Below are positions 44,005-46,997 of a DNA stretch of 64,000 nucleotides, one piece after another. The stretch is from NCBI GenBank assembly GCA_947501265.1, contig CANMVY010000011.1:1-64000 (forward strand), given 5' to 3'. Both the position numbers and the translations under genes were made by a program. Position 1 is the first letter of the stretch. The number at the start of each line of letters is the position of its first letter. A model generated the notes under the pieces. It made no database searches. It saw nothing but the letters and a program-made list of their open reading frames with translations, and was not told the DNA's origin. The DNA is from Bacteroidota bacterium. GTDB lineage: Bacteria; Bacteroidota; Bacteroidia; UBA7662; CANHCV01.

Positions 44005-44035
44005 TTTGATAAGAGAAAATAAATTTTTAGATTTG
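44005..44035 (+). promoter_or_regulatory. Consensus promoter of the fused metal importer operon
   Basis: TTTG (44005-44008), 19 nt, TAGATTTG (44028-44035), an exact match to TTTG-N19-TAnnTTTG. Predicted leader only 10-15 nt before the ATG at 44053. Confidence 0.8.
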
Positions 44036-44040
44036 CCTAA
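44027..44040. promoter_or_regulatory. DtxR-box-like operator overlapping the -7 element
   Basis: TTAGATTTGCCTAA agrees with the DtxR core TTAGGTTAGCCTAA at 12 of 14 positions and has the same 5-4-5 half-site spacing. It lies in a wider imperfect palindrome (AAATTTTTAG-ATTTGC-CTAAATTTTT). The -7 element is inside it, so a bound repressor would block transcription. That the DtxR-like domain encoded two genes on binds here is inference. Confidence 0.6.
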
Positions 44041-44052
44041 ATTTTTATTTTG

Positions 44053-45762
44053 ATGAGGCGAATTGTTTTTACATTGCTGCTGCTGTTTCAGCTTAATGCC
44101 TTTGCTCAAATTGTAGCTACCACCTCTTTTTTGGCAGACATCACCCAGAACTTGGTAGGAAAGCATAAAAAAGTACTTTCTCTTTTACCGGTTGGATCGG
44201 ATCCACATATTTATGAGCCGGTTCCGGGAGATGTTCGAACGTTGGCCGAAGCAGAGTTCATTGTAAAAAACGGGTTACATTTGGAGGGATGGCTGGATAA
44301 AGTTCTCGAAAATTCGGGAACCATGGCCAATGTGGTTACGGCAACCCAAGGAATTTCTCCGATTTCGGCTCAAGGTTTCCAAAATGCCTATGATCCACAC
44401 GCTTGGATGAGCGTAAAAAATGCAAAGATTTACGCCAGCAATATTGCTCGTGAGTTAAAACGAACCTTTCCAGAAATTCAACAAGAAATCGAAACAAACA
44501 CTAGCGCTTATCTTTCAAAATTAGAAGAATTGGATCGTTGGGTGCGGGATCAAATTCAATCGATACCCATTGAGAAACGGGTATTATTTACGTCTCACGA
44601 TGCTTTTCGGTATTTCGGAAAAGAATACGGCATTCAAGTGGAATCCATCTTGGGAACCTCAACCGATGCCGATGTTCGCATTGAAGATTTGGATCGAATG
44701 ATTTCGAAAATTGATCAAACCGGGGTGGCGGCCATTTTCGTTGAGAGCACCATCAACCCTAAAATGATGCAACAAATTGCCCGAGATTCTGGCGTAAAAA
44801 TTGGTGGAAATTTGTTTGCCGATAGTTTGGGTCCAACGGGCTCTGAAGCAGAAACGTACTTGGGCATGATTCGCCACGACGTTAAAACCTTGGTGGAGGG
44901 ACTTCGGCAGCAGCGGACACAAAACAGCGCTTCTACCTCTTTTACGTTGTTTTTAGTGGTATTAAGTACGTTATTAGCCGCGTCTTGGATTTGGTTAGGT
45001 TCAAAGGTTCGCAAAAAAATAAAGAGTGAAATTGTTCCCCATGCGCAACTTCAGATTTCAAATATTTCGGTTACCTATGATCAGGTTCCTGTGTTTTCAC
45101 ACCTTCATGTAACCCTTCATTCTGGTAGAATTTACGGCATGGTGGGTCCCAATGGTTCAGGAAAAAGCACCTTGGTGAAAGCAATTTTGGGTCATCAACC
45201 ATTAGAATCAGGATCCATCGTTTGGAAAAACGTTCCTTTGCTCAAGCAATCCGGCGAAATTTCGTACGTCCCTCAAAAAGATGAAATCGATTTTTCTTTC
45301 CCGGCTACGGCTTACGATGTGGTAAACATGGGACAATACCGCCGGGAAGTTACGAAAGAAGAAATTCAGGTTCAAATGGAGCGATTGGGCATTTGGGAAT
45401 GGAAGAATCGCCCCATCGGTCAACTCTCAGGTGGACAACAGCAACGGTGCTTTGTGGCTCGTGCCTTGGTTCAAAACGCGCCCATCATCATTTTGGATGA
45501 GCCGTTTGTGGGGATTGATGCCACCACCGAAGCAAAAATTATGGAAGTATTAAGGGCAGAAGCCCAAAGGGGAAAACTCATTTTGGTTATTCACCACGAT
45601 TTGTCCAAAGTGAAGCAATATTTTGATGAAGTTTTGATGATGAATCGGCGGTTGGTGGCAAGTGGTCCTGTAGAAGAAACCTTTACCGCCGAAAACATCG
45701 AAAAAACGTTTTCTGCCCCAGGAATCCATTTTCACCAAGCCCAACAATTGATGAAGTCATGA
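44053..45762 (+). CDS. Fused metal-binding protein / ABC ATPase (Mn/Fe/Zn-type importer)
   Basis: A 569-residue fusion. Residues 1-18 are a signal or anchor sequence. Residues 19-290 are a cluster A-I metal-binding protein with ligands His52 (GSDPHIYEP), His116 (DPHAW), Glu231 (FVESTINP) and Asp257 (GGNLFAD). This His-His-Glu-Asp set is as in PsaA/TroA-like proteins and favours Mn/Fe over the His-rich zinc ZnuA site. Residues 298-316 are a membrane helix (TLFLVVLSTLLAASWIWLG) followed by KVRKKIK. Residues 335-560 are a cytosolic ABC ATPase (Walker A GPNGSGKS 365-372, LSGGQ 458-462, Walker B IIILDE, His515). The helix makes the topology consistent: sensor outside, ATPase inside. Normally these are separate proteins. 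ATG 44053 preferred over the TTG of the track. Overlaps the permease gene by 4 bp. Confidence 0.9.
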   Translation: MRRIVFTLLLLFQLNAFAQIVATTSFLADITQNLVGKHKKVLSLLPVGSDPHIYEPVPGDVRTLAEAEFIVKNGLHLEGWLDKVLENSGTMANVVTATQGISPISAQGFQNAYDPHAWMSVKNAKIYASNIARELKRTFPEIQQEIETNTSAYLSKLEELDRWVRDQIQSIPIEKRVLFTSHDAFRYFGKEYGIQVESILGTSTDADVRIEDLDRMISKIDQTGVAAIFVESTINPKMMQQIARDSGVKIGGNLFADSLGPTGSEAETYLGMIRHDVKTLVEGLRQQRTQNSASTSFTLFLVVLSTLLAASWIWLGSKVRKKIKSEIVPHAQLQISNISVTYDQVPVFSHLHVTLHSGRIYGMVGPNGSGKSTLVKAILGHQPLESGSIVWKNVPLLKQSGEISYVPQKDEIDFSFPATAYDVVNMGQYRREVTKEEIQVQMERLGIWEWKNRPIGQLSGGQQQRCFVARALVQNAPIIILDEPFVGIDATTEAKIMEVLRAEAQRGKLILVIHHDLSKVKQYFDEVLMMNRRLVASGPVEETFTAENIEKTFSAPGIHFHQAQQLMKS

Positions 45763-46997
45763 ACGAGTTTTTGAATTTATTTGAATACGCTTACGTAGGC
45801 AGAGCCCTGATGGCCTCTTCCATGGTTGGCATCATGTGCGGCGTTTTGGGATGCTTTATCGTACTTCGAAACATGTCGCTCATCGGAGATGCGTTGTCTC
45901 ATGCTATTCTTCCGGGCGTTGTTGTTGGTTTTTTAATAGCAGGAGCCCAAACGTTCGCATTTTTTACAGGATCGGTGGTTGCGGGTATGGTGGCTGCGGT
46001 TTTGATAACGGCTTTACAACGGCACGCAAAGACCAAAAACGATGCTGCAATTGGAATTGTATTTACTTCGATGTTCGCCTTGGGAGTAATGGGAATAAGT
46101 GCTCTTACCCGAAAGGAAGGGGTTCATTTGGATTTGAAGGATTTTTTATTTGGAAACGTTTTGGGCATTGGGCCGCAAGATATTTTATTGACCGGTTTGA
46201 TGTTGTTTTTTGTTATTGCTTCGGTGGCATTGTTTTATAAAAGCTTGTTTATTTCCACGTTTCAGCCCAATTTATCAGCAACCTTGGGAGTTCCTTCGGG
46301 ATTGATTCACTATTTTTTGATGTTATTGCTCAGTTTGGCAGTGGTGTCGTCGTTGCAATCGGTTGGAGTTATTTTGGTGGTGGCAATGTTAATTATTCCG
46401 GCTTCAACAGCGTATTTGCTCACCAATCGATTGCCGTGGATGTTGGTTATTTCTGGTTCAATTGGAGCCGTTTCGGCTTTGTTAGGAATGATCTGGGCAA
46501 TCATTTGGGAAACCACACCTGGACCAGCCATGACCTTAACCGGTAGTGCAATATACCTTACCGCACTTCTTTTTTCTCCCCAAAAAGGAATGATCGTTCG
46601 GTTTTTCAGGAAGAAATCTCGTCAAAAAGATCATCAGTGTGAAGATTTATTGAAAGAAGTTTACAAGGTTCAATTTGGAGAGAAGAACGGGAATGGAAGT
46701 TGGTCGGAACAGCAATTTTATGCGTCTAAAAACTCCTGGAAACGGTTGGAAAAAAAGGGCTGGAAAAGATCTGGCCTTCAACAACTAAGCGAAGAAGGAA
46801 TTCTAAAAGCTGAGTCGCTGATTCGTGCCCACCGATTGTGGGAGAGTTATTTGCACCAATTGGGCGTAACCGAAGAAGAATTGCACCCTATGGCCGAATC
46901 GTTGGAACACCATTTGCATGCCGAATTTTTGAAGGAGCTCGACAAAGATTTGGGTCATCCCGATAAAGATCCTCACGGTTCTAGCATTCCAAGATAA
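45759..46997 (+). CDS. Metal ABC permease fused to DtxR/MntR-like regulator domain
   Basis: A 412-residue fusion. Residues 1-283 are an ABC-3 family permease (about 8 helices; GVLGCFIVLRNMSLIGDALSHAILPGVVVG; SLQSVGVILVVAMLIIPASTAYLL). Residues 290-412 resemble DtxR/MntR repressors: a degenerate winged-helix part (EDLLKEVYKVQ ... SKNSWKRLEKKGW ... LSEEGILKAE), then the metal-binding and dimerisation domain. Alignment with DtxR His79/Glu83/His98/Cys102/Glu105/His106 gives His358, Glu362, His376, Glu380, Glu383, His384. Glu at the Cys102 place is the MntR-type change. The end DPHGSSIP is also typical. Chlamydial YtgCR has this same permease-repressor fusion and is cleaved to free the repressor. 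Ended by a strong terminator. Confidence 0.9.
   Translation: MNEFLNLFEYAYVGRALMASSMVGIMCGVLGCFIVLRNMSLIGDALSHAILPGVVVGFLIAGAQTFAFFTGSVVAGMVAAVLITALQRHAKTKNDAAIGIVFTSMFALGVMGISALTRKEGVHLDLKDFLFGNVLGIGPQDILLTGLMLFFVIASVALFYKSLFISTFQPNLSATLGVPSGLIHYFLMLLLSLAVVSSLQSVGVILVVAMLIIPASTAYLLTNRLPWMLVISGSIGAVSALLGMIWAIIWETTPGPAMTLTGSAIYLTALLFSPQKGMIVRFFRKKSRQKDHQCEDLLKEVYKVQFGEKNGNGSWSEQQFYASKNSWKRLEKKGWKRSGLQQLSEEGILKAESLIRAHRLWESYLHQLGVTEEELHPMAESLEHHLHAEFLKELDKDLGHPDKDPHGSSIPR

Follow-up and report, generated by a model that had tools for sequence, protein, structure and literature searches.

Permease-DtxR fusions are themselves already known. In Chlamydia, a permease of the ABC-3 type is followed by a DtxR-like domain within a single gene product, YtgCR, which is cleaved and whose repressor part, YtgR, binds DNA at the ytg promoter (PMC5599777, PMC7755916). 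A passage of PMC5599777 which cites Thompson 2012 counts permease-repressor fusions in 11 phyla; beyond this mention we found no literature on permease-DtxR fusions outside Chlamydia. In the stand-alone repressor MntR the primary metal site is formed by Asp8, Glu99, Glu102 and His103 (PMC4805248, PMC6860424), while in the membrane part of the pneumococcal manganese importer Asp46 and His50 of the permease PsaB coordinate the metal (PMC11779740). Ligand-binding regulatory domains of ABC importers have precedents in MetNI and ModABC, in which a C-terminal domain binds the substrate and dimerises (PMC10710835).

The window analysed here, a stretch of 64,000 nucleotides from a Bacteroidota bacterium, harbours two adjacent genes whose products would together make up a complete importer:

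44053 to 45762, forward strand: metal-binding protein, one transmembrane helix and ABC ATPase in a single polypeptide (Pfam, hydropathy)
45759 to 46997, forward strand: permease fused to a DtxR-like metal-sensing domain (ATG start, 412 amino acids)
45759 to 46580, forward strand: ABC-3 permease part of the fusion protein, residues 1-274 (PF00950, phmmer match to PsaB)

The two genes share 4 nt, the start of the fusion gene lying across the stop of the gene before it. The open reading frame of this preceding gene was called from a TTG at 44050, the ATG at 44053 being the likelier start. Its product begins with a signal peptide-like segment and comprises a ZnuA match (residues 21-284, E = 4e-78), a transmembrane segment at residues 297-315 as judged from hydropathy, and an ABC_tran match (residues 351-486, E = 8e-30), after which Pfam reveals no further domain. 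The binding-protein part contains PsaA-type ligands (His-His-Glu-Asp) and the ATPase is PsaC-like. In 20 related operons, too, binding protein, transmembrane helix and ATPase form one chain, an unusual arrangement by which the binding protein is anchored to the motor subunit.

In the fusion protein, residues 10-272 match PF00950 (ABC-3; E = 2.8e-68, 230.7 bits at a cut-off of 20.1) and residues 345-412 match PF02742 (Fe_dep_repr_C) above the cut-off (E = 3.3e-22), which bears out the first-pass annotation in that a permease and a DtxR/MntR-like domain share one open reading frame. Among permeases of solved structure, PsaB of the pneumococcal manganese importer comes nearest (7kyp, E = 8.7e-51, query residues 7-277 on 9-271). 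Asp44 and His48, which are invariant in 70 sequences, correspond with an offset of +2 to Asp46 and His50 of PsaB; from the Pfam match together with this Asp/His pair the fusion protein is to be classed among the PsaB-type permeases. PsaBC and MntBC provide the closest permease and ATPase among solved structures, and the Asp/His pair of their metal path is kept, but PsaB lacks a C-terminal sensor and their binding protein and ATPase are separate chains whereas here they are fused. Both the PsaA ligand types and the rank of PsaBC as the closest solved importer (E ~1e-50) speak for a manganese-type system, and we infer that the metal imported is manganese or ferrous iron.

The part of the fusion protein beyond the permease can be divided as follows:

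46587 to 46676, forward strand: long helix, residues 277-306, leading from the last membrane segment into alpha-1 of the sensor (helix 2-31 of the AlphaFold2 model of residues 276-412)
46677 to 46790, forward strand: degenerate, shortened helix-turn-helix, residues 307-344 (no PF01325 match, low pLDDT, low identity)
46791 to 46994, forward strand: metal-binding and dimerisation domain PF02742, residues 345-412 (E = 3.3e-22, fold match)

The start of the long helix is rich in Arg and Lys (KGMIVRFFRKKSRQK). By the positive-inside rule for membrane proteins, such positive charge behind the last transmembrane segment places the fused domain in the cytosol. The AlphaFold2 model, which was calculated from 23 sequences for the isolated residues 276-412 as a monomer without the permease (mean pLDDT 85, pTM 0.79), consists of the long helix 277-306, two short helices in the place of the helix-turn-helix, and the metal domain. 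While the metal domain reaches pLDDT values of about 86 to 95, the start of the helix-turn-helix (model residues 31-50) remains at about 58 to 61. Foldseek and VIA-align match the model to the manganese repressor DR2539 and to DtxR, SloR, IdeR and MntR with Z scores of 11 to 15, values which call for caution with helical proteins but which the sequence match supports independently; model residues 14-137 are brought into register with residues 3-134 of DtxR. A comparison of the predicted structure with MntR and IdeR, as proposed earlier, finds the fold retained and the helix-turn-helix shortened and predicted with low confidence.

The degeneration of the DNA-binding part is not a peculiarity of this protein. 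PF01325, the DNA-binding domain of DtxR, has no match anywhere in the fusion protein. We compared three sets of fused domains, namely that of its own lineage (23), a distant Bacteroidia-type set (44) and a set from a second phylum (44). PF02742 is found in all 111 of them (23/23, 44/44 and 44/44), PF01325 at an E-value of up to 1 in as few as nine (4, 4 and 1 per set), the best value being 0.006. In contrast, 27/27 separate DtxR proteins match both PF01325 (best E = 1.6e-19) and PF02742. Mean pairwise identity within the helix-turn-helix amounts to 0.23-0.26 in the fusions versus 0.62 in the separate DtxRs, whereas the metal domain shows 0.53-0.57 versus 0.69. The separate DtxR proteins of this genome group possess Asp41 and Met42 of the recognition helix without exception, whereas the fusions have not kept them. 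The earlier description of the winged-helix part as short and poorly conserved thus holds (0.23-0.26 there versus 0.57 in the metal domain), and the question it had raised, whether orthologues keep a recognition helix, is answered in the negative. Judged by its winged helix the fused domain fails as a DNA-binding DtxR repressor, although a lost PF01325 match is no proof that DNA binding is lost, and YtgR of Chlamydia does bind DNA (PMC5599777).

The metal ligands present the opposite picture. Their positions are:

46644 to 46646, forward strand: Asp296, position of DtxR Met10 and MntR Asp8 (E-D invariant in 23/23 fused lineage members; register from the fold alignment)
46830 to 46832, forward strand: His358, DtxR His79 and MntR His77 (invariant)
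46842 to 46844, forward strand: Glu362, DtxR Glu83 and MntR Glu81 (invariant)
46884 to 46886, forward strand: His376, DtxR His98 (invariant)
46896 to 46898, forward strand: Glu380, DtxR Cys102 and MntR Glu99 (Glu in 22/23, Asp in one)
46905 to 46910, forward strand: Glu383-His384, DtxR Glu105-His106 and MntR Glu102 and His103 (invariant)
46968 to 46976, forward strand: Asp404-Pro-His406, ScaR/SloR Cys123-Pro-His125 of the secondary site (invariant in 23/23; SloR alignment)

The solved sensors nearest to the fused domain are the manganese repressor MtsR (5zr4), SloR, ScaR and DR2539. In phmmer alignments query residues 342-411 fall on 63-133 of DtxR and, over equal spans, 343-389 on 62-108 of MntR. 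The six DtxR ligands which the first-pass annotation had assigned (His79, Glu83, His98, Cys102, Glu105 and His106) agree position by position with the pairwise alignment, and its reading of Glu in place of Cys102 as the MntR-type change is confirmed in that Glu380 aligns with MntR Glu99. All six positions are filled as claimed, yet the number was an undercount as Asp296, Asp404 and His406 are filled as well; the latter two match Asp132 and His134 of PgMntR (PMC4805248). Nor do orthologues replace the ligands randomly: all nine positions are invariant in 23/23 lineage members, save the one exchange of Glu380 for Asp, and the reported positions are likewise invariant in 44/44 members of the more distant fused set. 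This invariance holds across genomes at a domain identity of about 33-41%, a degree of conservation which is far from chance.

The domain hence shares with MntR, ScaR, SloR, DR2539 and DtxR the PF02742 family, present in 23/23 relatives as well, the MntR-type primary set Asp/Glu/Glu/His (Asp296, Glu380, Glu383 and His384) and the fold, while it differs from them in being tethered to the membrane and in its shortened helix-turn-helix without a conserved recognition helix. Where MntR has Glu11, the present protein has Lys299 and the 23/23 lineage members Lys or Arg, which renders the binuclear A site of MntR incomplete. A DtxR/ScaR-like arrangement of primary and secondary site is more likely from the alignments. 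That the Glu replacing Cys102 proves manganese specificity was an idea we dropped, since separate DtxRs of the same group possess Glu there too; the metal sensed may also be Fe(II).

Nine conserved ligand positions at the exit of the channel, unlike the helix-turn-helix in their conservation, would also suit a domain which merely catches the metal leaving the permease, buffers it and hands it on without any regulation. In DtxR and MntR, the alpha-1 position taken by Asp296 couples metal binding to domain movement, and a conserved Asp at this place would fit a switch better than a store; we regard such a relay as improbable.

If the fused domain does not read DNA, transcription of the operon must be considered apart from it. 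Upstream of the importer genes lies a candidate operator:

44026 to 44041, no strand assigned: DtxR-like operator TTTAGATTTGCCTAAA 5' of the importer operon (palindrome TTTAGRYNNRYCTAAA)

The palindrome, which we take to resemble the classical DtxR operator, has its sole perfect match in the whole genome at this site. Searching within 280 bp upstream and allowing up to 2 mismatches, we found the box 5' of 18/20 lineage operons (0.66 expected); in one of the two exceptions (L064) a perfect box is situated 41 nt inside a probably over-long ORF call (G008:C1:216403). The box also precedes 19/19 operons led by dtxR (0.52 expected), and five of the operons with the box have domain-free permeases (L092, L093, L094, L148 and L149). 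On account of these five, we gave up an initial interpretation of the box as a site of autoregulation by the fused domain. The genome itself encodes exactly two PF02742 proteins, the fusion and a separate DtxR with an intact winged helix-turn-helix. Such a separate DtxR is kept in nearly all related genomes too, often as the first gene of the operon. Many operons of Bacteroidia begin with dtxR, which is followed by the genes for the binding protein, the ATPase, a first permease with the fused domain and a second permease, and thus encode both the repressor and the fused domain.

In relatives, perfect copies of the box further occur before unlinked TonB-dependent receptor-like genes (L171-L177 and L180, four of them confirmed by Pfam), which suggests that metal uptake across outer and inner membrane shares one regulon. 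In two cases, likewise in relatives, a divergently oriented Fe/Mn superoxide dismutase gene lies next to the importer gene, with the box in between (L179:538-553 and L182:850-865, the former confirmed by Pfam). The occurrence at unlinked receptor genes and at a dismutase gene points to a regulator acting in trans. The simplest explanation of these sequences is a small metal-uptake regulon with the separate DtxR as its regulator, bound to the box; very probably it is this repressor which governs transcription of the operon. In the region corresponding to 44026-44055, relatives show TAnnTTTG, presumably a Bacteroidetes-like -7 element, immediately after the box and, a few bases on, the start codon, so that the operon may be transcribed into a leaderless mRNA.

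These observations bear on the parallel to YtgCR which the first-pass annotation had drawn. The architecture holds, as permease and DtxR-like domain follow each other in one gene with conserved metal-ligand residues, but compared with YtgCR as described in the literature the DNA-binding signature is lost here, a separate intact DtxR is present and the box is independent of the fused domain; the function is probably not the same. A C-terminal part cleaved off to serve as soluble, metal-dependent repressor of the operon would accord with the domain order, with the cleavage and promoter binding known from Chlamydia and with the DtxR-like box. It is, however, hardly to be expected where nearly all fusions show a decayed helix-turn-helix, in contrast to the invariant recognition helix of the separate DtxRs, where operons devoid of the domain still possess the box and where the genome encodes a separate repressor with intact winged helix. 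Moreover, alpha-1 is continuous with the membrane exit in the model, leaving no disordered linker, and a conserved internal Met or start for a soluble fragment is absent among the fused lineage sequences. What is new in the present comparison is that selective decay of the helix-turn-helix together with a domain-independent operator gives evidence, on the level of sequence, that many fusions are not repressors.

We favour, at a probability of roughly 0.6, the reading that the fusion protein serves a manganese/iron ABC importer as membrane subunit and that its DtxR/MntR-derived sensor has given up DNA binding and regulates the importer. Since DNA reading is lost and metal binding kept, with ligands invariant while the helix-turn-helix decayed, the most likely role of the fused domain is that of a sensor of manganese or iron in the cytosol which acts on the transporter itself. 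Of the two options left by the first-pass annotation, DNA binding or metal sensing with gating of the permease, the evidence favours the latter: the helix-turn-helix is decayed and domain-free operons retain the box. In DtxR-type proteins alpha-1 becomes fixed to the dimerisation domain once metal is bound. At high cytosolic concentration, manganese or iron would bind between Asp296 of alpha-1 and Glu380, Glu383 and His384, with His358, Glu362, His376, Asp404 and His406 providing a second metal site, and would likewise fix alpha-1. As alpha-1 with its primary ligand and the membrane exit form one predicted helix, metal binding could pull on the permease. Two sensor domains would then pair beneath the permease dimer and hold the importer in a state of low activity (trans-inhibition), while transcription would be controlled separately by the stand-alone DtxR at 44026-44041. 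To our knowledge, the known trans-inhibition domains reside on the ATPase and none on the permease. By analogy to MetNI and ModABC, internal metal would be expected to inhibit the importer; their C-terminal substrate-binding and dimerising domain embodies the working principle proposed here (PMC10710835), although it is of other folds and placed on the ATPase, whereas in the present importer no further Pfam domain follows the ATPase.

That a whole family of manganese/iron permeases from at least two phyla uses DtxR sensors which do not read DNA to feed back on transport, in parallel to a related free repressor sensing the same metal, has in our estimation about an even chance. If true, uptake of manganese and iron would be controlled at two levels by the same sensor fold, once on DNA and once on the transporter, the permease of an ABC importer would bear a metal-sensing regulatory domain, and a transcription-factor domain would clearly have been recruited to control a membrane protein directly. 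Permease-DtxR fusions in databases would then by default have to be annotated as regulated transporters rather than repressors. With a cytosolic sensor and its ligands at hand, the question is directly testable with few point mutants.

Variants among the relatives put this regulatory role to a further comparison. Three close relatives (L092-L094) have lost the domain but kept the importer, which makes the domain dispensable. In two-permease operons of the Bacteroidia type one permease only carries the domain, and simple pairing does not explain this arrangement as no sensor homodimer can form within one transporter. A single domain per two-permease transporter would suffice if the fused domain and the separate DtxR formed mixed dimers, the repressor being held at or released from the membrane according to the transport or metal state, in the manner of MalK and MalT. 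Both proteins share the PF02742 dimerisation domain and in many genomes are encoded in one operon; the domain tree, however, keeps fused and separate forms apart (76 columns, unrooted), and we consider such docking unlikely, if somewhat less so than cleavage or relay.

Tandem permeases of the second phylum often bear the fused domain on both members. In those of L199, L202, L203, L205 and L206 one of the two domains has lost ligands, the His98 position being changed to Asp and DPHG missing, as though one partner of a paired sensor were now passive. This loss, the loss of the domain in L092-L094 and the decay of the helix-turn-helix might be taken to mark a remnant of an old permease-repressor fusion which decays without present function. 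With ligands invariant at about 33-41% domain identity and a domain fold predicted to be intact, this is highly improbable, and a sensor of the importer remains our preferred interpretation.

In a quick tree of the permeases the own lineage grouped with the unfused second permease, a grouping which was gone once long branches had been removed. The tree without them resolves three groups in an unrooted trichotomy, compatible with one or two origins of the fusion. Seven permeases (L146, L147, L196, L197, L201, L204 and L207) bear C-terminal extensions of about 80-110 residues, possibly sensor domains decayed still further; that of L146 matches no Pfam family. Full-length DtxR possesses an SH3/FeoA-like domain past the metal domain. 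In many fused relatives (L060, L062-L067 and L096-L101) about 80-90 residues follow the metal domain at this place, giving a total of about 500 amino acids, a segment which is absent from the protein encoded at 45759-46997.
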